A stretch of 64,000 bases of DNA from Pistricoccus aurantiacus (GTDB lineage: Bacteria; Pseudomonadota; Gammaproteobacteria; Pseudomonadales; Halomonadaceae): assembly GCF_007954585.1 (NCBI RefSeq), contig NZ_CP042382.1, positions 1,488,001 through 1,552,000 of the forward strand, given 5' to 3'. Made by a program: the position numbers and the translations under genes. Below are positions 1,626 to 37,411 of the stretch, piece by piece; within the stretch, counting starts at the first letter, position 1; every line of letters starts with the position of its first letter. The notes beneath the pieces are model-generated. The model was not told where the DNA came from, ran no database searches, and was given only the letters and a program-made list of their open reading frames with translations.

Positions 1626-3065
1626 ATGAACAAGACCCTTGTAATACTGGTAGCGGGCCTGACGCCTCAATTGATCGGCTCGCGCACGCCCCACCTGGCT
1701 AGGTTTGCCAGAGAGGGGAGTATGCGCCCTTTGAGCACGGTCATGCCGGCGGTAGCCTCGAGCGTGCAGTCTACCCTGGTTACCGGGCTTCTCCCTGCGG
1801 AGCACGGCATCGTCGCTAACGGCTGGTATTGCCGCGATGCCGCGGAGATACGGCTTTGGCGTCAATCGAGCCGCTTGGTAAAGGGAGAGAAGATATGGGA
1901 AGCAGGCAAGGCGAAAAATCTCGATTTCACCTGTGCCAACATGTTCTGGGGTCACAACATGTATTCATCCGCGGACTGGAGCGCTACACCGTGCCCCCAG
2001 GAACTTGCGGACGGCCGCAGGATTTCCGACCATTATACCTCTCCCGCAGAGCTTCACGATGAGCTTGACGCGGCGTTCGGCCGGTTTCCACTGTCCAAAT
2101 GGTGGGGGCCAATGGCTAGTATCAGTTCTAGCCGCTGGATCGCCAAGTCGACCCTATATGTCATGGAGACCCGCGATCCTACCTTGACCATGACCTATCT
2201 GCCTCATCTTGATTACAACCTGCAGCGACTGGGGCCAGATATTTCCCATCCGCGGATTCAACAGGATCTACAGGAAGTCGATGCCCTCTGCGGTGAGTTG
2301 ATCGAGGCGGCGAAGCAACAGAATCGACGGATCATCGTCCTGTCCGAATACGGTACCACTCCTGCCGCGGATGCCATCCACATCAATCGGGCATTGCGCC
2401 AGGCAGGTCTGCTGGCGGTGCGGGTGGAAAAAGATGTCGAACAGCTCGATCCAGGCGCTTCCGGGGTGTTTGCCGTGGCAGACCATCAGATCGCTCATGT
2501 CTACATCAAGGACAAAGCACGAATTCCCGAGGTAAAAACCTTGTTGGAAAGCCTGGAAGGGATGGAAACGGTCTGGGACGAAAAGGGCAAGAAAGCCCAA
2601 GGACTAGATCATGCCAATAGCGGCGAGCTGGTAGCCATTGCCAAGGCGAATCGCTGGTTCAGCTACTATTATTGGCTGGATGACAAGCGAGCGCCGGACT
2701 ACGCTCGTACCGTGGATACTCATCGCAAGCCCGGCTATGATCCGGTCGAACTGTTCGTGGATCCTGCCATCAAGATTCCCGATCTGGCGGCGGGCTGGCG
2801 ACTGGTCAAGCGTAAGCTAGGCATGCGCCAGCTGATGGATATCATTTCTCTCAAGGATACCCAGTTGGTCAAGGGCACTCATGGTCGCCTAATCGACGAT
2901 CCGAACGGAGGACCCTTGGTGATTTCTTCGGAAGCCGACCTGCTGCCGCAGGGGCCGGTGGATGCCACCGACTTCAAGGCGCTGACTCTGGCACATTTGT
3001 TTGGAAAAGAGACTCAGGTCAAGAAGGACGTTCTAAGACGACACCTGAACAAGCGCTCGGCTTAG
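1626..3065 (+). CDS. Alkaline-phosphatase-superfamily protein (phosphodiesterase/nucleotide pyrophosphatase type), ebo-cluster associated
   Basis: A 479-residue cytoplasmic protein of the type I phosphodiesterase/nucleotide pyrophosphatase group. Segments typical of this subgroup are VAGLTPQLIG near the N-terminus, STLVTGLLPAEHGIVANGW around residues 49-67 (nucleophile region), YLPHLDYNLQ near 196-205, ADHQIAHVY near 285, and the late KGTHG metal-ligand segment. The first metal-binding Asp usual in nucleotide pyrophosphatases is not visible (LVAGLTP), so its chemistry may differ. Proteins of this kind accompany the ebo genes that cyanobacteria need to move the scytonemin precursor to the periplasm. 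Here it converges on, and overlaps by 33 bases, an EboC-like gene. Its substrate is unknown. Codon use is less GC-rich than in neighbouring genes. Confidence 0.8.
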   Translation: MNKTLVILVAGLTPQLIGSRTPHLARFAREGSMRPLSTVMPAVASSVQSTLVTGLLPAEHGIVANGWYCRDAAEIRLWRQSSRLVKGEKIWEAGKAKNLDFTCANMFWGHNMYSSADWSATPCPQELADGRRISDHYTSPAELHDELDAAFGRFPLSKWWGPMASISSSRWIAKSTLYVMETRDPTLTMTYLPHLDYNLQRLGPDISHPRIQQDLQEVDALCGELIEAAKQQNRRIIVLSEYGTTPAADAIHINRALRQAGLLAVRVEKDVEQLDPGASGVFAVADHQIAHVYIKDKARIPEVKTLLESLEGMETVWDEKGKKAQGLDHANSGELVAIAKANRWFSYYYWLDDKRAPDYARTVDTHRKPGYDPVELFVDPAIKIPDLAAGWRLVKRKLGMRQLMDIISLKDTQLVKGTHGRLIDDPNGGPLVISSEADLLPQGPVDATDFKALTLAHLFGKETQVKKDVLRRHLNKRSA

Positions 3066-3920
3066 CCGCTGTAGCGCCAGGGTGGCGAGGAAGGCAGCAG
3101 CCGCTAGCAGAGCGATATCGATAGCACCGGTAGCAGCAATCAGTATCGCGTCGTAAAGCGCAATAGCGGCAATCAAACTGACGATGGCTTTCGATACGTC
3201 CTCGGGCTGGCGCCTAAACAGCCGGGCAAGCGCTCCGCCACACCACAGCAGGTAGGCCGCCAGCATGGTTCCGGTCAATAGAACTCTGGCTAGACCAGCG
3301 TCGGCGTCGCCAAGCGCTACCATCATCATCAGCACCAATACCGGTATCGCCATGATGGCCAGGGGCCAGACCGCGACAGCACGGTAATAGGCTTTCAGCT
3401 TGACTGCGTGGGTCAGGCCTGCAACGTGGCAAAGTAGACCGAAAGCGCCCAGCATGATCGGCCAGGACAGCTTGCCGACGGCCAGCGCTCCCAAGAAGTA
3501 GGTCAGCAGGCGGCAAGCTCCCATGATGGCCGGTCCCCAGCTAATTTGCTTGTTTAGCCAGTTATACAACAGGATCGCCAGTACCAGCGCCAGACCGCAT
3601 AGGCCGGCAGGTATGTTCAACAGGAAAGCCAACAGAACGCCAAGCCCCAGCATGGCGGCGCCAAGCAGAGCGACGGTTCGGCGGATCATTTCCCCTTGGA
3701 GAACAGGCCTCTCGCTGTGTTCCCTGATATCGACTTGCGCGTCGGAAGCATCGTTCAAGTAAGTGCCACCCAGGTAGAATAGCGATAGGGCAGCCAACAG
3801 ATGCAGCAACGGCGCCGCGTCAAGCGCCGCTCCGGTAAGCAGCCAGCCCGCTAGCCCGCTGGTCCATACCGTAGGCAGGTTCGAGACACGCCCGAGTTTG
3901 AGCCACATCCGCCAACTCAT
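3033..3920 (-). CDS. eboC: UbiA-like membrane prenyltransferase, EboC family
   Basis: An integral membrane protein of about 295 residues with roughly nine hydrophobic segments. UbiA-type aspartate motifs are present: NDASDAQVD after the second helix and an ERP motif shortly after it. The second Asp-rich loop of canonical UbiA enzymes is replaced by HAVKLKAYY, as in divergent EboC-like members. The start is placed at MSWRMW (3920); the frame is open further upstream, but that stretch overlaps a small ORF. The 3' end overlaps the convergent phosphatase-like gene by 33 bases. eboC belongs to a conserved cluster linked to export of precursors; the other ebo genes (A, B, D, E) are absent here. The substrate is unknown. 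Confidence 0.75.
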   Translation of the reverse strand: MSWRMWLKLGRVSNLPTVWTSGLAGWLLTGAALDAAPLLHLLAALSLFYLGGTYLNDASDAQVDIREHSERPVLQGEMIRRTVALLGAAMLGLGVLLAFLLNIPAGLCGLALVLAILLYNWLNKQISWGPAIMGACRLLTYFLGALAVGKLSWPIMLGAFGLLCHVAGLTHAVKLKAYYRAVAVWPLAIMAIPVLVLMMMVALGDADAGLARVLLTGTMLAAYLLWCGGALARLFRRQPEDVSKAIVSLIAAIALYDAILIAATGAIDIALLAAAAFLATLALQRLSRALVQVSS

Positions 3921-3933
3921 GTCGATTGCTTTT

Positions 3934-4098
3934 TTATCCAATGAGTTTTTCCACCATGACGTCTTCGATATCGCGTCGCTCGAGGGCGTCGCCAGCGGCG
4001 AGATTTGCAGGCATATAAAACGCATGGTTCATCAGAAAATGAGGTAAGCCATCGGCGTCGACATTCTCGAAGGTAATGTGCGTCGTATTATTCTGCAT
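3934..4098 (-). CDS. small hypothetical protein just upstream of eboC
   Basis: An ORF of 54 codons (62 if read from 4122) ends 13 bases before the eboC start and is probably co-transcribed. The sequence begins MQNNTTHITF and ends with an acidic helix-like segment (ERRDIEDVMVEKLIG). There is no signal peptide and no membrane segment, and no family was recognised. Codons look like those of eboC rather than random AT-rich DNA, which argues for translation. The ribosome binding site is weak for either start (GAGAAAG nine bases before 4098). It may be a genuine small protein or the remnant C-terminus of a lost ebo-type gene. Confidence 0.4.
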   Translation of the reverse strand: MQNNTTHITFENVDADGLPHFLMNHAFYMPANLAAGDALERRDIEDVMVEKLIG

Positions 4099-4122
4099 CG
4101 GGCAGTACTTTCTCTCTTGCAT

Positions 4123-4579
4123 CAGCTTCGGGGCAATGAGTATGCGCTGGATAAACGGGCTAGAGTTAACCTGCTAAACGGCTTGTTGCGCGCTCAACAA
4201 GAATTCAATGCTAACGCATAATGTAAATAAATTGTGTATTTTTAAACATTTAAGATACATTTTGTAATATAGCTGGCGCGAGATTGTCTTTTAAAACAAT
4301 GTGTTATGAAATACTGGCAAATTTAGGTAGGTAAAAAATCATTCAAGGCATTAGCTTGATTAATTTTTTAAGAAAGTAGAAAAGCAGTTTATTTCTTTTG
4401 CTGGTGTTTGTTTTTTTTTGTCTAAATTAATTAAATATTTAATTTACTTGTCGGTAAGGCGGCCATGAAAATGAAGGCGAGCCATGTCAGCTGTCCGAAT
4501 GGACAACTGACCCTTTCACTGTTTTGGGGGAGAAGTCGAGGCGTTGCGGAATGGGCGAGGGAAGAGCTTATTTCTTCAC
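4123..4579. other. long AT-rich non-coding stretch
   Basis: About 450 bases without a supported gene. Most of 4190-4450 is strikingly AT-rich for this genome. It contains the perfect 16-base palindrome AATTAAATATTTAATT at 4429-4444, a run of nine T at about 4411-4419, and a strong inverted repeat at 4486-4511. It separates the ebo pair from the ferric iron operon and, with the region before 1626, brackets the less GC-rich ebo islet. Confidence 0.5.
4486..4511. repeat. inverted repeat, 11-base arms with 4-base loop
   Basis: GTCAGCTGTCC, then GAAT, then GGACAACTGAC. Ten of eleven positions pair, with one G/A difference. It lies about 70 bases beyond the stop codon of the fbpC-like gene on the minus strand. 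No U-tract follows on either strand, so it is either a weak terminator or stabiliser of the fbp transcript, or a regulator-binding palindrome. Confidence 0.5.
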
Positions 4580-7364: not shown

Positions 7365-8363
7365 TTAAAGCAGCTCCGCCTGGCGCAGCAGATCCAGCGT
7401 GCCCTTTAGATCGTCGAGGTTGTCCAGGGCAACATCCGGGCTGACCTCCATCAGATGATCGATGCTTTCCAGCTCGTCGTTCTGCTGCACGTTCTCGATC
7501 ACCGGATATTCGTAGACGTTGTTCGTGAAGTACTGCTGGGCTTCCGGCGACAGCAGGTAGCGCACGAATTCGACGGCATTCTGCTTGTCGTCGCTGCTCT
7601 CGAGCACGCCGACCCCGGCTACGTTGACCAGATTGCCGATATCGCCTTGTTCGAAGAAGGTCTGCTCCACCGGAAAGTCGCTGTCCTCCTCCAGAAAGCG
7701 CAGCAAATAATAATTGTTTACCAGACCGAAGTCGATTTCCCCGTCCGCGATGCCCTGGACCTGAGAACTGTTGTTGGAGAACACCACCGCCTCGTTGTCG
7801 CGCATGTTCTCGAGCCATTCCAGGGTGCGCTCATCGCCATGTTCCAGACGCATGGCGGTGACGAAGGACTGGAAGGAGCCGTTGGTTGGCGCCCAGCCCA
7901 CGCGGCCTTCGTATTGATCCTGGGTCAGATCGAAGACGCTCTTCGGCATCTCGTCCTCGCTCACTCGCTCCGGAGAATAGGCCAGCACTCGAGCCCGGCC
8001 GGTGGCGGCGACCCAGTTGCCGGTCTCGCTCTTGAACATGGCCGGCAGGTCCTGATAGACGTCTTGGGGCAGCTCCGCCAGCAGTCCCGCCTTGCTGACC
8101 GCCCCCATGGCGCCCGCATCTTGACCCCAGAACACATCCGCCGGTGAGTTCTGGCCTTCCTCCTGCAGCAGTACCGCCAGTTGAGCGGTGTCACCGTAAC
8201 GAACCTCCACGTCAAGTCCTGACTGTTCCTCGAACTTCTCGATGATCGGCTCGACCATGGACTCGCCGCGTCCGGAGTAAAGCGTCAGGTCCGCGGCAAA
8301 GGCTAGAGGCGTGGCGGCCAGGGTGGAAAGCAGAGCTGCCGATACGAAAAAGGGGTGGCACAT
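7365..8363 (-). CDS. fbpA: Ferric iron ABC transporter, periplasmic substrate-binding protein
   Basis: A 332-residue periplasmic Fe3+-binding protein with a Sec signal peptide (about residues 1-23, ending PLAFAA before DLTLYSGRGE). The mature start LTLYSGRGES, the YGDTAQLAVLLQEEG segment and ADVFWGQDAG are typical of the FbpA/FutA family. The tyrosine pair in NNYYLLRF fits the conserved iron-ligand Tyr-Tyr. It is first in the operon, with a Fur-box-like sequence and a sigma70-type promoter upstream. An intercistronic hairpin follows it, consistent with the binding protein being made in excess over the permease. Confidence 0.92.
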   Translation of the reverse strand: MCHPFFVSAALLSTLAATPLAFAADLTLYSGRGESMVEPIIEKFEEQSGLDVEVRYGDTAQLAVLLQEEGQNSPADVFWGQDAGAMGAVSKAGLLAELPQDVYQDLPAMFKSETGNWVAATGRARVLAYSPERVSEDEMPKSVFDLTQDQYEGRVGWAPTNGSFQSFVTAMRLEHGDERTLEWLENMRDNEAVVFSNNSSQVQGIADGEIDFGLVNNYYLLRFLEEDSDFPVEQTFFEQGDIGNLVNVAGVGVLESSDDKQNAVEFVRYLLSPEAQQYFTNNVYEYPVIENVQQNDELESIDHLMEVSPDVALDNLDDLKGTLDLLRQAELL

Positions 8364-8441
8364 GCTAAGAATCCTTCTTTGGTTTCAATGGCGATACGAG
8401 ACTGCTGCGCAAGGGCAAATTGAACCGGCCCTAGTCATTGC

Positions 8442-8469
8442 AAGATAACAAAATCAGACGCAGTTTCAA
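8442..8469 (-). promoter_or_regulatory. predicted fbpA promoter
   Basis: On the minus strand TTGAAA (8464-8469) and TATCTT (8442-8447) are separated by 16 bases, a good sigma70-type match, about 80 bases upstream of the fbpA start. A Fur-box-like sequence touches its upstream edge. Confidence 0.55.
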
Positions 8470-8471
8470 AT

Positions 8472-8490
8472 GGTAATGATACGCAAACAT
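8472..8490. promoter_or_regulatory. possible Fur box upstream of fbpA
   Basis: GGTAATGATACGCAAACAT. The first ten bases match the Fur consensus GATAATGATAATCATTATC except at one position; the other half is weak. Its place directly upstream of the predicted fbpA promoter supports iron repression. The half-site quality keeps confidence moderate. Confidence 0.4.
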
Positions 8491-8679
8491 GATATTGATC
8501 AAATACTGACGATTCTTCCTTGGCCAACGCAAGATCCTGGAGGTCGATTCAGTCAAGAGAAATAAAAAATTGAAAAATCAAACGTTCGTACGGTTGCCGC
8601 TGTGCGAATTGCACTGAATGATAGAGGGGTAGTGAAAAGCAAGGCCCGGATGCACAACAACAAGTTCCAGGAGACTTTC
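8491..8679. other. divergent intergenic region between fbpA and the TRAP operon
   Basis: With the fbpA promoter region this makes a 316-base gap between divergent genes. It contains no gene. The part nearest dctP holds an A-rich segment (about 8561-8582) and an AGGAG ribosome binding site at 8669-8673. No confident promoter for the TRAP genes was picked out. Confidence 0.4.
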
Positions 8680-9771
8680 ATGTCATCACCTATCGTTACC
8701 CGGCGGCTGCTGATTGCCAGCATCGCCGCCGCCACGAGTACCGCAGTTGCGTTGCCTGCCCTGGCGGAAGGGCCCAAGCGTCTCGACGTAGCCAGCACCT
8801 TCTCGACCCAGAACTTTCTCGGCGCCGGCGCGGTGCATCTTTCCGAGGAGCTGGAAACCGCCACCGGCGGCGCGGTCAGCCTGCGGGTGCATGAGCCCGG
8901 CGACCTGGTGCCGCCTTTCGAGGTGTTCAACTCGGTCTCCTCCGGCGCCATTCAGGCCGGTTGGGACTGGATGGGCTACTGGGCGGGCACCGTACCGATC
9001 ACAAACCTTTACGGCGCGCTGCCATTTGGTCCCACCCCGGAAGCCTTCATGTCCTGGATGTGGGCGGACGAGGGCACCGAGCTGATCCAGCAGGCCTACG
9101 ATCCTTACGGGGTCAAGGTGCTGCCGTGTTTTATCTCGCCTCAGGAAACCGGCGGCTGGTATAACCAGGAAATCAATTCTCCGAAAGACTTCGACGGCCT
9201 GTCCGTGAGGATTTCCGGACTGGGGGCCAAGGTGCTCAATAAGCTCGGCGCCTCCACCCAGCTGGTACCGGGTAACGAGATCTATCTGGCCCTGGAGCGC
9301 GGTCGGGTGGATGCCACGGAGTTCTCCGTGCCCCAGGTGGATGCGGCCATGGGCTTCGACGAAGTGGCGGAGTACTACTACTTCCCGGGTTGGCATCAAA
9401 GCGCCAGCTGGTTCTCGCTGCTGATCAATCAGCAGGTCTGGGATGAATACAGCGACGAGCGCAAGGCCCAGTTCGAGACCGCCTGTCGCGCCACCCTGCA
9501 ATGGGCCATGGCGGAGGCGCCGGCGGAGCAGATGCGTACCGTCAAGCGTCTGGAAGAGAAGGGCGTCAAGGTCAAGCGCTTCCCGGATGAAGTGCTCACC
9601 GCCCTGCAGGATGCCTGGGTCGAGGTGCGCGAGGAGGAAATGCAGAGCAACCCGGACTTCGCCAAGGCCTACAAGTCACTGATGGCTCATACCCAGCTGA
9701 TCACCGAGTGGTATGAGCTCCAGGCGCTGCCGGAACCCAAGAAGGTTGAAACCACTGAAGGAGATAGCTGA
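8680..9771 (+). CDS. TRAP transporter substrate-binding protein (DctP/TakP-like)
   Basis: A 363-residue periplasmic solute receptor. Start chosen at MSSPIVTRR (8680), preceded by AGGAG; upstream codons in the same frame lack a signal. The N-terminus carries RR followed by a hydrophobic stretch and PALAEG, a Sec or Tat-type leader. The segments QETGGWYNQEINSPKDFDG, RISGLGAKVLNKLGA and ALERGRVDATEF are characteristic of the TakP-like branch of DctP receptors, which bind 2-oxo acids or related carboxylates. First gene of a complete three-gene TRAP operon; its stop overlaps the next start (TGATG). The exact substrate is unknown. Confidence 0.88.
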   Translation: MSSPIVTRRLLIASIAAATSTAVALPALAEGPKRLDVASTFSTQNFLGAGAVHLSEELETATGGAVSLRVHEPGDLVPPFEVFNSVSSGAIQAGWDWMGYWAGTVPITNLYGALPFGPTPEAFMSWMWADEGTELIQQAYDPYGVKVLPCFISPQETGGWYNQEINSPKDFDGLSVRISGLGAKVLNKLGASTQLVPGNEIYLALERGRVDATEFSVPQVDAAMGFDEVAEYYYFPGWHQSASWFSLLINQQVWDEYSDERKAQFETACRATLQWAMAEAPAEQMRTVKRLEEKGVKVKRFPDEVLTALQDAWVEVREEEMQSNPDFAKAYKSLMAHTQLITEWYELQALPEPKKVETTEGDS

Positions 9772-31351: not shown

Positions 31352-32482
31352 TCAAATCGGCCGTTGGGCTTCCTTGTAGGATCGAGCGCGGACCCGCTCG
31401 ACGCTTTCCGGGGCAATCAAGCCCAGTTCGCTGGCGTGGCTGGCCATCTGCTGGCTGCTTTTCGCCAGCAGCAGCTCGCAGTCGTTCTTGGCGACCTGGT
31501 CCGCCAGCCGGGCAATGGCCGCGTCGCGGCTTTCATCGTGATTGATGTTGCGGATATAGATCGCGCGGATACGTCCTGGGTACTGCTCGACGATCTGGAC
31601 ATAGACCTCCGGGTCGTGCTGGCCGCTGTCGCCGATCAGCACGAAGGGCAGGTCGTCGTAAAGCGCCAGCATCTGCTCGATCAGCTTGCGCTTGTGGTCC
31701 ACCGCCTGGCGGGGCAGGGGGTTCTGCAGGGTCATGCCCCAGTCCCGCAGAAAAAGAATCGGCCCCACCGGGATGTGGTTGCGCTGAAAGAAGGCCTCGA
31801 GCACTTCGTAGATACCCCAGGGACCCCGGGAGACGTAGAGCATCGGGCGATCGCGGTTGCCGTCCGGCCCTTCGAAGAGTGCCTGGTAAAAGGTCGCGAC
31901 ACCGGGAAAGGCGGTGCGGCGTTCCGCGGTTTCGAAGAACAGCCGGTAGATCATCTTGAATTTGTTGGCGACCCCGGTATACATCACCGTGTCGTCGATA
32001 TCGCTGATGACCACCAGGTCGGCGCTGGCCGGAGGCACGTAGATTTCCGCCTGGGTCTCGATGGTGTCCGGCTGGCGCTTGGCGTGCTCGATCGCGACTT
32101 CGAGTGTGGCCCGATGCCAGCTTTTTTCGTTATCCAGCGGTGTATCCAGCTTCATGTGAATATCGAAGTAGCCGTCCTTGCCGGTGGAAACGGTGAGCTT
32201 GCTGTCGTTGAGCTTGAGCGTCACCTGGGCGTTGCCCACGCCCCAGCGCAGGGTCCGTCGCAGCAGGTCGACCAGGTCCCGGAGCAGCGAGCCTTCCGCC
32301 AGGGACTGGCCGAACCCCGGCTGGCGAAAGACCCGGCCCAGTACGTAGATCTCTTGCGCCGAGCCGTAGCCCCGATAGGCTTGCACCACCACGCCTCCCC
32401 GACCGTGGTCGGCTTTCATCGGCTTGGTGGCAACGTGTAGCAGCTTGCGTAACGCTCTTCCTGGCGTGCGGCGCGATACCAT
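31352..32482 (-). CDS. App1-like phosphatase (DUF2183)
   Basis: A 376-residue protein with an N-terminal beta-rich domain (to about residue 170) and a HAD-like phosphatase domain starting at VVISDIDDTVM, the DxDxT catalytic loop. LYVSRGPWGIYEVLEAF and VLIGDSGQHDPEVY continue the domain; all are features of the App1 phosphatidate phosphatase family. No signal peptide or membrane helix is evident. The start at MVSRRTPG (32482) is preferred over ATG 32527, although neither has a strong ribosome binding site. The bacterial substrate is not established; a phosphatidate-type lipid is a guess from the yeast relative. Confidence 0.83.
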   Translation of the reverse strand: MVSRRTPGRALRKLLHVATKPMKADHGRGGVVVQAYRGYGSAQEIYVLGRVFRQPGFGQSLAEGSLLRDLVDLLRRTLRWGVGNAQVTLKLNDSKLTVSTGKDGYFDIHMKLDTPLDNEKSWHRATLEVAIEHAKRQPDTIETQAEIYVPPASADLVVISDIDDTVMYTGVANKFKMIYRLFFETAERRTAFPGVATFYQALFEGPDGNRDRPMLYVSRGPWGIYEVLEAFFQRNHIPVGPILFLRDWGMTLQNPLPRQAVDHKRKLIEQMLALYDDLPFVLIGDSGQHDPEVYVQIVEQYPGRIRAIYIRNINHDESRDAAIARLADQVAKNDCELLLAKSSQQMASHASELGLIAPESVERVRARSYKEAQRPI

Positions 32483-32561
32483 AGGCGGTTCTCGTGATTG
32501 GCAAGATGAGGCGAGTTGGCGGCTCATGTAAAAAACGGTTCGACTTGAAACAGTCTGGCAT

Positions 32562-32595
32562 AAAAAATGCCCGGTCGGGAAATTCCCGCCGGGCA
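32562..32595 (-). terminator. rho-independent terminator of the pfpI-type gene
   Basis: On the minus strand TGCCCGG..CGGGAATTTCCCG..CCGGGCA folds into a long GC-rich hairpin with one mismatch, followed by six T. It starts 26 bases after the stop of the PfpI-family gene. Confidence 0.88.
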
Positions 32596-32620
32596 CGCTG
32601 TCGGTCGTTCGAGTCGGCAA

Positions 32621-33184
32621 TCAGGCGTGCTGATCGCTATGGCGACCCTCGCCGATTTCCTCGATCAGTTTGCTGCAGAACGCATCCAGGTCGTCCGGCT
32701 TGCGGCTGGTGACCAGGCCGTTGTCCACGACCACTTCCTGATCGGACCAGTGGGCGCCGGCATTCTTCAGGTCTTGGGAAATGGAAGGATATGAGGTCAT
32801 GGAACGACCTTCGACCACCCCGGCATTGATCAAAATCCAAGGGCCGTGACAGATGGCGCCGACGGGCTTGCCCGCTTCGAAGAAATGTCTGGTAAAGCGC
32901 AGGGCATCATCATTCTGGCGCAGAGTATCCGGATTGAACAGGCCGCCGGGGAGCATCAGAGCGTGATAGTCGGCGACGTTCGCTTCGCTCAGGGCCTTGT
33001 CGACGTCGTAGGTATCACCCCAGTCCGTGCTGGCCCAAGCGCGAATACCCTTGGCATCCGGGGCGATCACGTGCACCGTGGCACCGGCGCTTTCCAGCTT
33101 GGCCTTGGGAACCGACAGCTCGGATTCCTCGAAACCGTCGGTGGCGAGAATAGCAACACGTTTTCCATTCAACTGCTGAGTCAT
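32621..33184 (-). CDS. DJ-1/PfpI-family protein (YhbO-like deglycase or peptidase-like)
   Basis: A 187-residue cytoplasmic protein of the PfpI group. The start at MTQQLNGKRV (33184) follows AAGGAGG by five bases. The conserved glutamate region (LATDGFEESELS), the nucleophile elbow AICHGPWIL with the catalytic Cys, and the His just after it are all present. Members are implicated in protection from glycation and oxidative or acid stress. It sits beside Dps and a universal stress protein on the same strand, but with its own strong terminator. Confidence 0.9.
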   Translation of the reverse strand: MTQQLNGKRVAILATDGFEESELSVPKAKLESAGATVHVIAPDAKGIRAWASTDWGDTYDVDKALSEANVADYHALMLPGGLFNPDTLRQNDDALRFTRHFFEAGKPVGAICHGPWILINAGVVEGRSMTSYPSISQDLKNAGAHWSDQEVVVDNGLVTSRKPDDLDAFCSKLIEEIGEGRHSDQHA

Positions 33185-33313
33185 GGCAACCTCCTTGCGG
33201 CACATGGTGAGTCGCGGCGTCTTGCCGTCGCGACTCATGACAACATTGGGATGCTTGAAAATCTATCAAGGGGGTATGACCTCACTCCTTCGCTCAAGCC
33301 TAGGTCATCACGC

Positions 33314-33799
33314 CTAGCCTAGGTAGGCGTTGAGCATCCACAGGGTCTTTTCCTGCTCGCGAATATAGTCGCTGGCTTGCGAGGCGGTGCCTTCGTCGTC
33401 TGCGTCGGACGCCAGGGACAGAATTTCCCGCTGCAGCTCGATCAGCACCTGATAGCCTTTGACGACGCTGCGCACGCAGTCCTCGCCACCGGCCACATTC
33501 TTGTCTTCCTCGATCGTGGAAATCCGACCATAGTCGCTGTAGGCGTGCAGGGGCTGATGACCCAGCGTCAAGATGCGCTCCGCGACTTCATCGATCTTGG
33601 TCAACAGGTCCGTATAGAATTCTTCGAATTTGGCGTGCAGCTCGAAGAACTGCGGGCCTTTCACGTTCCAGTGATAGCCCCGCACGTTCATGTAAAAGAT
33701 CTGGTAGTTGGCCAGCAGCGTGTTGAGCTTTTCCGCTAGCTGATTGGCGCTGGAAGTTTGCAGGCCGATCGTATTGATATCGCTGTCCTGATGTGCCAT
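33314..33799 (-). CDS. dps: Dps-family ferritin-like DNA-protecting protein
   Basis: A 161-residue four-helix-bundle protein. The ferroxidase motif is visible in NVRGYHWNVKGPQFFELHAKFEEFYTDL (split over His, Asp/Glu and His residues). The start at MAHQDSD (33799) has AGGAG upstream; an ATG nine codons earlier has none. Dps forms 12-mers that oxidise and store iron using H2O2 and bind DNA in stationary phase. The C-terminus ends soon after helix D (LWMLNAYLG). Confidence 0.92.
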   Translation of the reverse strand: MAHQDSDINTIGLQTSSANQLAEKLNTLLANYQIFYMNVRGYHWNVKGPQFFELHAKFEEFYTDLLTKIDEVAERILTLGHQPLHAYSDYGRISTIEEDKNVAGGEDCVRSVVKGYQVLIELQREILSLASDADDEGTASQASDYIREQEKTLWMLNAYLG

Positions 33800-33933
33800 C
33801 GAAATTCTCCTGAGCCTTGGTAACAAGTTGATATCAACAAGCCTATAAGTTTACGTATCGAGACTAAAGTCAATCCTCGCCATCGCTATCATAGGTAATA
33901 CTCATGACATTGCGACGCCGCGAGCTACCGGAC

Positions 33934-34365
33934 TCAGCGCACGACCATGACCGAACATGGCGCATGGCGAACGATGCTCTCCGAGTCGTGACCCAGCAGA
34001 ACCCGCGCGAGAGATTCCCGTCCGCGGTTACCCACCACGAGCAGCCCCACCCCGATTTCTTCCGCCAGACGCACGACTTCGGTGTCCACGCGCCCCATCC
34101 GCAGGTGCGCCACTACCGCCTTGGCGCCGCCGGCTCTGGCCTTTTCGACCTCTTGATCCAGCCGTCTCTGGTTTTCCTGTTTCAATCGGCCGTACTGCCT
34201 CTCCGAAAGCGTGTCCGGGTGCGTCCAGGGCGAAATGAGGCCGACCAGAAGCAGATGCAGCTCCGATCTCGTGGCGTCACAGAGTTCGACCGCCTGAGTG
34301 ATGGCACGGTCCGAGGCGGCCGATCCGTCGACCGCCACCATGATCTTCGTGGGATACATTTTCAT
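33934..34365 (-). CDS. Universal stress protein (UspA family)
   Basis: A 143-residue single-domain Usp. It has the N-terminal KIMVAVDGSAASDRA strand-loop and the nucleotide-binding motif GNRGRESLARVLLGHDSESIVRHAPCSVMVV, corresponding to G-2x-G-9x-G(S/T), which suggests ATP binding. It lies 134 bases from the dps start on the same strand. Confidence 0.92.
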   Translation of the reverse strand: MKMYPTKIMVAVDGSAASDRAITQAVELCDATRSELHLLLVGLISPWTHPDTLSERQYGRLKQENQRRLDQEVEKARAGGAKAVVAHLRMGRVDTEVVRLAEEIGVGLLVVGNRGRESLARVLLGHDSESIVRHAPCSVMVVR

Positions 34366-34431: not shown

Positions 34432-35802
34432 TCATCCCCGCCTGTCGAGAATCAGCTGCAGCTCGCGCTGCAGCTGACGCACGGCCTGCTGGCCGGTCAG
34501 TTCGCCGCGCAGCACGCGATTGAACCCAATCGCCAGGCGCTGGGACATGGCCGCGTAATACGGTGTGACCGGGCGCAGCCGGGCATCGTCGATCGCGCGG
34601 CGGCCAAGCGTCATGACCGGCACCTGCTCGAGCAGCTGCTCATCGTCGTACAGGACCTCGAGCGTGGGCAGAAACCCGCCGTCGCGGGCGCGCTGTTTCT
34701 GGCGCTCGGCAGAGGCAGCGAAGCGGATGAATTCCCAGGCCGCGTCCTGCTTCGACGATCGAGCATTGATCATCAGATTCCAGCCCCCCAGACAGCTATA
34801 GGAATTACGCTCCGGGTTGACCCTCGGAATGGGGGCGATGCCGACCTGATCGGCGCTGAGCCGCGAGCCCTCTTCGTCGATCAAGCCGTAGACGAACGGC
34901 CAGCTGCGCATGAAGACAGCGTCGCCGTTCAGAAACGCTCGGGTGGTGTCTTCTTCACGAAAATTCGCCACCTCCCGGGGGACGACGCCGCTTTCGATCA
35001 ATTCCCTTGCGATGCTCACCCCTCGCGCCGAATCCGCGCTGTTGATCATGATGACGTTGGGAGAGCTCACGTCCATGCCGAAGGCCGCGGCGGTCGACAG
35101 ATTGCCGGTGAGCACACGTCCGCCGGCGCTCCACAAGAATTCCAGCATGCTGGCGACGCCACCCTCGTACTGGGCGCCCTGGAAAACGAAACCGTACTTC
35201 GTGCCGGCCTTGTCACGGGCATCGCTTGCCATCCGCGCAAGCTCGTCCCAGGTCGCGGGCGGCTTGTCGTGCCCGGCAGATTCAAGCAGATCGCGGCGAT
35301 AGTAGAGCATGCCGGCGGCGGTGAACCAGGGCACGCCCCAGAGTCGATTGCGATAACCTGCTGAATCGAGGGGCGCGTTCAGGAAATCGCCAGGTGAGTA
35401 GACATCGTTGAAGCGGGCGGTCAGATCCGTGACGTAGCCGCGACTGGCAAAGGCAGCGGTCCAGACCATGTCGCCGCCGAACACGTCGATGCGGCGGGCG
35501 TCGACCTCGAAATCCGACACGAGCTGGCGGTAGAAGTCGTTCGTGGAGCGTGGCATCACCTGATAGCGCACGCGAATCCTGCCCTCGTACTGCTGATTGA
35601 ACGCCTTGATCAGCGCCTGGAGGCTTCCCGAATCGTCCGGGCCGAAAGCGAAGGTGAGCTCTTCGGATTCGTTGGCCGCGATAGTACCCAAGGGGGAGAT
35701 GCCCAGCACGGCCATGCCGCCGAGACCCAGGCCGCCCAGCAGCAGGCGGCGTCGAATGGCATCCGGGTATGCAGACAGGTTTTTATCGATTGGCGGTTTC
35801 AT
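34432..35802 (-). CDS. Tat-exported ABC-type sugar-binding protein without ABC partners
   Basis: A 456-residue extracytoplasmic binding protein of the carbohydrate family 1 type. The leader has RRRLLLGGLGLGGMAVLG (about residues 18-35), a twin-arginine-type signal. The mature part shows typical family features (ESEELTFAFGPDDSG, GVPWFTAAGMLYYRRDLLESAG, ATWDELARMASDARD, WEFIRFAAS). It is most like trehalose/maltose-type receptors. Remarkably, no ABC permease or ATPase gene is near; instead it follows an SGLT-type symporter by 25 bases. It may deliver sugar to that symporter, or work with an ABC system elsewhere. Confidence 0.87.
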   Translation of the reverse strand: MKPPIDKNLSAYPDAIRRRLLLGGLGLGGMAVLGISPLGTIAANESEELTFAFGPDDSGSLQALIKAFNQQYEGRIRVRYQVMPRSTNDFYRQLVSDFEVDARRIDVFGGDMVWTAAFASRGYVTDLTARFNDVYSPGDFLNAPLDSAGYRNRLWGVPWFTAAGMLYYRRDLLESAGHDKPPATWDELARMASDARDKAGTKYGFVFQGAQYEGGVASMLEFLWSAGGRVLTGNLSTAAAFGMDVSSPNVIMINSADSARGVSIARELIESGVVPREVANFREEDTTRAFLNGDAVFMRSWPFVYGLIDEEGSRLSADQVGIAPIPRVNPERNSYSCLGGWNLMINARSSKQDAAWEFIRFAASAERQKQRARDGGFLPTLEVLYDDEQLLEQVPVMTLGRRAIDDARLRPVTPYYAAMSQRLAIGFNRVLRGELTGQQAVRQLQRELQLILDRRG

Positions 35803-35827
35803 GGGGTGTCCTCCTTGGACGCCGGCG

Positions 35828-37411
35828 TTACCAGAACCAGATGACGATGATCGCGGTGACGACCATCAGCACCAGCGACTGGTAGCGATAGTTCTGCCAG
35901 GCCGGTTTGGCTGCCAGATCCTTGGACTCGTCTTTCAAGATCCGCGTTGTCCAGATCAGCTCATCGACTTCCTCGCCGGGCTTGTGCTGAGTCACCAGGC
36001 TGACGCCGATGATCAGCGCCAGACCGATGAAGAGCAGCACGCTGGCAGAATAGAGAAAATGAAAGTCCACCAGACCGCCTACCTGGATGGTGAAAAATCC
36101 CAGGATGCCGATCCCCAGGCCACCCACGAACGCGGCGAATGCGCCGGCGGGGGTGGCGCCGCGCCAGAGAATACCGACGAAGAAGATCGCGACCACCGGC
36201 GGCGTCACGTAGGCCAGGATCGACTGGAAATAGCTCCACAGGGACTGGAAGTGGATGATCTGCGGCGCCCAGAGCACGACGATCAGCATGACGGCCACGG
36301 TGGTCATCTGACCGATGCGCACCAGGGCAGCGTCGCTGGTGTGCGGCCGCAATGGTTTGACAAAGTCCATGGTCACCATGGTCGACACCGAGTTGAGAAT
36401 CGAATCGACGGTGGAAGTGATCGCGGCAATCAGCGCCGCCAGCACGATGCCGCGCAGCACGATGGGCAGCAGATCGAAGGCGATGGTCGGAAAGGCCAGA
36501 TCCGGCGTCTTCAGATCCGGATACAGCGTCAGCGCCATCAGCCCTGGCAGGATCATGAGAAACAGCGAGGTGAGTTTCAGGAAACCGGCGAAGATCGAAC
36601 CCCAGCGGCCGTGATCCAGGGTCTTGGCGCCCAGGGTGCGCTGCACGATCAGCTGGTTGTTGGCCCAGAAATAGATGCCGATGATCAGCACCCCGAACAG
36701 ACCGGGCCAGGGCAGGCTGGGATCGTCGATGGGCCGTATGATGCTCATGCCGTTTTCCGGGGCGGCCTGGACCATGGCGTCCCAGGAGGGGATCGCATAG
36801 AGCCCGGCAGCGAGCACCAGGGCCGCGCCGAGCAGCAGCACACAGGCCTGGATGGTGTCGCTGATCACCACCGCGCCGAGCCCGCCGAAGAATGACATGA
36901 TGCCGGCAAGTATCGTCAGGATAAGCACGCCGACCCAGAGATCGATGCTCGGGAAAAGCGTCTGGATCACCAGCCCCCCGGCGTAGAGCGCACCCGCGCA
37001 GTCGAGAAAGATACTCAGAAAGATCAGCATGCCGGCGAATATGTAGCGCGAGCGGGAATCGAAGCGGCGTTCGAGAAATTCCGGCATGGTGAACACACCG
37101 GAGCGCAGATAAAACGGCAAGAGCATGAAGATGAAGACGACCAGCGCCACCGCGGCAATCCACTCATAGCTGTAGACCGCGATCCCCGAGCTGTAGCCTG
37201 CGCCCGCCATGCCCACGAAGGAGGAGCCGGACATGTTGGTCGCAAACAGCGAAAAACCGATCATCGGCCAGACGAAGTTGCGACCGCCCAGAAAGAAACC
37301 GCCCGTATCCGATTTCTTGCCCCGGTTGAGCCATAGCGGGATGGCGCGACTGGCAATCAGATAGATGACGACGACAGTGATATCAATCCATGTGATATTG
37401 AAATCTTGCAC
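35828..37411 (-). CDS. Sodium/solute symporter, SGLT-like (SSS family)
   Basis: A 527-residue membrane protein with about fourteen helices. The first core helix reads SLFATNMSGSSFVGMAGAGYSSG, the sodium-site region of the family. FWANNQLIVQRTLGAKTLDHGRWG corresponds to the NQxxxQR segment of sugar-transporting members such as vSGLT. Likely substrate: a sugar. A variant of the LacI operator found at the glucosidase locus lies 57 bases upstream, which links it to alpha-glucoside use. It is first in a two-gene operon with a binding protein. Confidence 0.88.
   Translation of the reverse strand: MQDFNITWIDITVVVIYLIASRAIPLWLNRGKKSDTGGFFLGGRNFVWPMIGFSLFATNMSGSSFVGMAGAGYSSGIAVYSYEWIAAVALVVFIFMLLPFYLRSGVFTMPEFLERRFDSRSRYIFAGMLIFLSIFLDCAGALYAGGLVIQTLFPSIDLWVGVLILTILAGIMSFFGGLGAVVISDTIQACVLLLGAALVLAAGLYAIPSWDAMVQAAPENGMSIIRPIDDPSLPWPGLFGVLIIGIYFWANNQLIVQRTLGAKTLDHGRWGSIFAGFLKLTSLFLMILPGLMALTLYPDLKTPDLAFPTIAFDLLPIVLRGIVLAALIAAITSTVDSILNSVSTMVTMDFVKPLRPHTSDAALVRIGQMTTVAVMLIVVLWAPQIIHFQSLWSYFQSILAYVTPPVVAIFFVGILWRGATPAGAFAAFVGGLGIGILGFFTIQVGGLVDFHFLYSASVLLFIGLALIIGVSLVTQHKPGEEVDELIWTTRILKDESKDLAAKPAWQNYRYQSLVLMVVTAIIVIWFW

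Follow-up and report, generated by a model that had tools for sequence, protein, structure and literature searches.

A sodium:solute symporter (SSS) of the SLC5/SGLT-like type and a family 1 solute-binding protein (SBP) of ABC lineage are encoded as a conserved gene pair at nine loci in two phyla. Comparative analysis documented the pair itself, the single-clade origin of its SBPs, the joint inheritance of both genes across the two phyla, a loop that sets the paired SBPs apart, purifying selection, and pair-bearing genomes without a close ABC partner. Functional linkage of the SBP and the symporter is well supported, and we lean slightly towards reading the pair as one import system, a binding-protein-dependent Na+ symporter.

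Organization and conservation of the symporter–SBP pair

The window analysed here is a 64-kb stretch of the Pistricoccus aurantiacus genome, a single contig of 3.78 Mb that groups at family level with two Halomonas assemblies. The first-pass annotation had described an SGLT-type symporter, a Tat-exported SBP 25 bases downstream and a neighbourhood free of ABC permease and ATPase genes, and each element of this description was borne out. Both ORFs lie exactly where it placed them on the minus strand: the first gene encodes a 527-aa SSS symporter (35828..37411; PF00474) and the second a 456-aa SBP_bac_1 protein (34432..35802; PF01547). The symporter ORF starts with GTG and the SBP with ATG. Within the 25-nt gap, a Shine-Dalgarno motif, AAGGAGG (35810..35816, minus strand), stands 7 nt ahead of the ATG and gives the downstream SBP its own ribosome-binding site; the motif is also present in L062 and L063. 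Sequence and alignment predict a Tat-type signal peptide over about residues 1-45 of the SBP (35668..35802, minus strand), with the RRR motif in the N-terminal twin-arginine signal IRRRLLLGG. Genes for a sugar ABC importer, with its MalFG-type permease and MalK ATPase, do not adjoin the pair, and the only ABC set seen in the window is ferric-type, about 27 kb away and equipped with its own SBP. A scan for promoters and terminators at the locus yielded no more than in shuffled sequence.

Directly 3′ of the pair lies a gene for a universal stress protein (USP; 33934..34365, minus strand; PF00582, E 2e-29), a possible third gene that is kept in all three Halomonads. The region 3′ of the pair (window 31352-34365) forms a stress-gene cluster, which encodes this USP, a Dps-like ferritin, a PfpI family protein and an APP1 phosphatase domain.

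A contig scan identified SBP orthologues in the two Halomonas assemblies (83-85% identity) and in one actinobacterial MAG (51%), with the SSS gene directly upstream in every case. Among 275 genomes of the family, the SBP orthologue occurred only in the window genome, G514 and G520, all three of which carry the pair. A further search of 396 genomes of the MAG's actinobacterial phylum, queried with each protein and followed by reading of the neighbourhoods, revealed five more pair-bearing genomes (G967, G900, G717, G694 and G847; in the last, the contig ends inside the SSS gene). The nine paired loci (the window, L062, L063, L187, L217, L218, L219, L220 and L270) thus represent three Halomonadaceae and six genomes of an actinobacterial phylum. 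Gene order is SSS then SBP throughout, the intervening gap is 12-44 nt wherever the start is clear, and the SSS stop codon of L217 shares bases with the SBP start codon (TGATG). A MalFG-type permease pair and a MalK ATPase are absent beside all nine SSS-paired SBPs as far as the contigs reach. Apart from the USP gene of the three Halomonads, the flanking genes vary between lineages, which identifies the pair itself as the conserved unit.

Phylogenetic analysis of 56 SBPs placed the nine with an SSS neighbour on one side of a single branch (support 100/94). Their single origin was recovered in 100% of bootstrap trees, with ABC-linked and orphan SBPs outside. For the paired lineages, the SSS tree had the same topology as the SBP tree, ((Halomonads),L217) and (L187,(L218,(L219,L220))). 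Pairwise distances of the two proteins were correlated (mirror-tree r 0.85, Mantel p 0.0005), also when only one Halomonad was retained (r 0.88, exact p 0.0097). This agreement of trees and distances indicates that the genes have travelled together; contact between the proteins is not implied by it alone. Collectively, the nine loci, the trees and the distance correlation reveal a stable link of the SBP to a secondary carrier rather than to its usual permease.

The symporter subfamily also includes members without the SBP. A closely related SSS (about 55% identity) in L221 (G706) has no SBP orthologue, which means that SBP dependence is not absolute across the whole SSS subfamily. The conservation check proposed in the first-pass annotation therefore supports its reading of a symporter–SBP unit in part: the pair is kept as a unit without an ABC permease at nine loci in two phyla, but L221 shows a close relative of the symporter with no adjoining SBP. 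In L184, the only SBP is divergently placed, belongs to another clade and lies 2.9 kb away, and a contig end cuts the L222 locus. An adjoining SBP is also missing from SSS relatives of lower identity (34-48%) that occur in Halomonadaceae, in Actinobacteria and on Roseobacter plasmids. On the Roseobacter plasmids, the solo SSS gene is immediately followed by a mechanosensitive channel gene (L235:5989-8716; L236:5001-7643), near Dps or ectoine hydroxylase. This context suggests osmolyte or compatible-solute uptake by the SSS subfamily, from carriers that are only 43% identical and have no SBP.

Protein features and the origin of the SBP

Domain analysis assigned the symporter to the SSS (SLC5) family. 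Its SSF domain (PF00474, residues 39-431, E 9e-69) extends across the whole protein, and its best solved relatives are the SLC5 members SGLT1 (E 3e-81), SGLT2 and vSGLT (E 2e-70). In a HMMER alignment, the SGLT1 residues N78, E102, W291, K321 and Q457, which line the sugar site, are kept, and H83, Y290 and T287 are changed. On the symporter side, no residue restricted to the SBP-paired SSS forms was found as a signature of SBP dependence, and the clade-specific SSS residues are common to L184 and L221, both without an adjoining SBP of the paired clade. AlphaFold2 models of the two proteins, built from few sequences, reached mean pLDDT values of 57 and 35, too low for structural interpretation.

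Among Halomonads, dN/dS was 0.08-0.11 for the symporter and 0.14-0.15 for the SBP, low values which indicate that purifying selection maintains both genes. The symporter gene of L062, a draft assembly, is frameshifted, perhaps through a sequencing error, and among Halomonads the pair is seen at its cleanest in L063.

The SBP carries the SBP_bac_1 domain (PF01547, E 4.5e-37), and its closest solved relatives are MalE3 of Thermotoga (E 1e-61) and the trehalose/maltose-binding protein TMBP (E 7e-50). Its actinobacterial relatives are Tat lipoproteins, and that of L217 is a Sec-type lipoprotein. Alignment revealed an extended loop of 18 aa (residues 232-249; 35056..35109, minus strand) in all nine symporter-paired SBPs, 12-15 residues longer than the 3-6 aa found in all 64 other SBPs compared. 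Judged by its alignment position after the GGxVLT strand, this loop would match an exposed C-lobe hairpin of maltose-binding protein. In the window SBP, residue 162 (35317..35319, minus strand) is Ala (GCC), at a position where Asp is nearly invariant among relatives. It aligns to an Asp of trehalose/maltose-binding protein that contacts the sugar.

The actinobacterial phylum holds an expanded set of the wider SBP family (about 40-50% identity), in which some members belong to MalFGK operons and many stand alone. Sister SBPs of 42-48% identity sit in MalFGK operons in L271, L275, L280-L283, L286 and L291-L293. Because the sisters occur in MalFGK-type ABC operons or alone, the SBP is of ABC lineage and has changed its partner. 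Conservation of the SBP with an ABC permease set, which the first-pass annotation had counted against its own proposal, is thus a feature of sister clades that adjoin MalFGK, and not of the paired clade. The simplest history is one ABC-to-SSS partner switch, after which the two genes were inherited together and crossed between phyla at least once. Elsewhere in the same family, permease-less SBPs (L285, L287, L289, L290 and L296) have neighbours that by inspection resemble dapD, dapE and an aminotransferase, which belong to lysine synthesis by the succinyl-DAP branch. In another subclade, orphan SBPs (L279 and L294) lie beside purA, purD and purB (by inspection) and a ParB-like gene.

The window genome encodes a second such arrangement 8-12 kb before the window start (L173:2317-5511; G000:C1:1476316-1479510). 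There, 24 nt separate a mannitol-type family 1 SBP (SBP2; L173 4171-5511, minus strand) from the 609-aa permease downstream of it (2317-4146, minus strand), which found no match in Pfam, NCBIfam or PDB and has NCS1-like features by eye. SBP2 and the permease also adjoin, without MtlFGK, in G438 (L306) and G439 (L307), and the SBP2 clade is separate from MtlE of mtlEFGK operons (FastTree support 1.0). In four other genomes (L309-L312) the permease has a complete mtlEFGK operon downstream, and in L308 and L233 it lies beside mannitol dehydrogenase. In the window genome's own mtlE, which encodes the mannitol-type ABC binding protein, there is an in-frame TAG (L170 ~7657-9004; G000:C1:3721897-3722970); mtlFGK look intact. 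The SBP2–permease arrangement suggests that ABC-type SBPs have been taken up by secondary carriers more than once, and partner swapping may have occurred at least twice in the window genome, the second time between SBP2 and the unclassified permease.

A candidate import system and competing explanations

In the import system that we favour, an exported, often lipid-anchored SBP would capture a sugar or sugar-like solute with high affinity, dock on the outer face of the symporter and pass the ligand over, and the Na+ gradient would power uptake through the symporter. The scheme follows the precedent of TRAP, TTT and TAXI-GltS, although its components are unrelated to theirs. A regulatory role may fall to the USP encoded downstream in Halomonads, in analogy to TeaD, which accompanies TeaABC according to work cited in PMC7174268. 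Ligand delivery by the SBP, docking, hand-over, the identity of the ligand and the symporter's need for the SBP are the parts of this scheme that we infer.

Relatives of the SBP bind alpha-disaccharides and sulfoquinovosylglycerol, and an alpha-glucoside or a glycosidic compatible solute is the probable ligand. The latter is suggested by the halophile context: a USP lies downstream, and solo SSS relatives have mechanosensitive channel or ectoine genes in their vicinity. An SGLT-like monosaccharide site in the SSS, however, does not match the disaccharide ligands of the nearest solved SBPs. This mismatch counts against the import-system reading, as do A162, the L062 frameshift, the exceptions L221/G706 and L184, and the absence of any SSS feature found in paired forms only. 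Glucosylglycerate was also considered as the ligand, because L064 has an MGH1-like hydrolase at 5-6 kb from the pair and the window has a glycerate kinase upstream of it. It was ruled against because the hydrolase is absent in Halomonads, mostly unlinked in actinobacteria and also present in a genome without the SBP, and because L062 and L063 have no glycerate kinase at that upstream position; it is kept only as a lead.

A distinctly less probable explanation places both proteins in the same pathway without hand-over: the SBP would bind the substrate outside, where it concentrates, tethers or reports it, and the SSS would take up free solute without needing the SBP. The solo state of L221 and of the more distant SSS relatives fits this account, as do the many permease-less orphan SBPs that these Actinobacteria encode within the wider family. 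Strict adjacency, a single clade, the clade-specific loop and parallel trees nevertheless suggest more than loose co-function, and the overlap of the two genes in L217 weighs on the same side. It appears improbable that the SBP merely adjoins the SSS and serves an ABC permease encoded elsewhere, as its sisters in MalFGK operons might suggest. Two pair-bearing genomes (G967 and G694) do carry several CUT1 permeases, but the one close MalFG-type permease set of the window genome, MtlFGK, already has its own adjoining SBP. With the window's MtlG permease as query, G514 and G847 gave weak matches only (24-28% identity), in a comparison that more divergent permeases could escape; the paired SBP of both genomes has, as judged from these sequences, no evident close CUT1-type partner. 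The equivalent weak match in the window genome is an ABC set with, by inspection, a polyamine-type SBP sequence. Moreover, retention beside an SSS across phyla is not what one would expect of an ABC SBP.

We consider it very unlikely that the SBP and the SSS form a sensing module, reporting the solute, perhaps via the USP, with transport secondary. SSS domains fused to kinases do act in sensing (PMC7918813), and a USP gene lies downstream of the pair in Halomonads and, by inspection, also after the solo SSS of L226. The pair, however, has no kinase or regulator domain, no such neighbour is common to the lineages, and the SGLT-like sugar-site residues are kept. That the two genes are accidental neighbours is barely credible: beyond general possibility nothing speaks for it, and nine loci in two phyla, one clade and congruent trees imply that the pairing is more than chance.

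Relation to known transport systems

The carrier of the pair is a clear member of the single-component SSS/SLC5 family (vSGLT, SGLT1, EctI), with SGLT-type sugar-site residues. SSS carriers share the LeuT fold and work, on current understanding, by alternating access of the non-elevator type. Descriptions of known SSS transporters include no binding protein, whereas the SSS of the pair has one beside it. Binding proteins go unmentioned in a review of prokaryotic SSS (PMC7918813), and no report of an SSS–SBP system was found in the literature searched, whose coverage leaves out subscription papers and preprints. The SBP belongs to the same family as that of CUT1 ABC importers (MalEFGK, of the trehalose/maltose type), but in the paired clade a symporter stands where the permease and ATPase would be.

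TRAP transporters (TeaABC, SiaPQM) resemble the pair in joining a periplasmic SBP to a Na+-driven carrier, and the Halomonad USP is comparable to TeaD. Their DctP SBP and DctQM, however, are unrelated to both proteins of the pair, in which Pfam detects SBP_bac_1 and SSF only, and TRAP works by an elevator mechanism and has two membrane subunits.

Before TAXI-GltS was described in 2025, the SBP-dependent secondary transporters known were TRAP and TTT only (PMC12344293). In the TAXI-GltS system of Bordetella pertussis (BP0403-GltS), as in the pair, the gene linked to that of the SBP encodes a single-subunit Na+ symporter in place of the usual permease, the symporter family otherwise works alone, and the SBP was recruited from another transporter class (PMC12344293). 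The components differ: a TAXI SBP and GltS, a predicted elevator of the ESS family, in that system, and SBP_bac_1 with a LeuT-fold SSS in the pair, where Pfam finds no TAXI-type SBP or GltS (ESS) symporter. SBP–carrier fusions are known for TAXI-GltS, and none was seen for the SSS–SBP pair.

The TAXI-GltS authors asked why more such classes do not exist, proposed that SBP dependence may require an elevator mechanism, and named further classes as a test (PMC12344293). Because the SSS is a LeuT-fold carrier, a conserved SBP–SSS pair puts this idea to a direct test. We regard as evenly balanced the broader proposition that a LeuT-fold SGLT-type symporter became SBP-dependent through an ABC family 1 SBP, forming a class unrelated to TRAP, TTT and TAXI-GltS in which an elevator is not required. 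If this is true, ABC-type sugar-binding proteins can move to a Na+-driven carrier of the family of human SGLT1.
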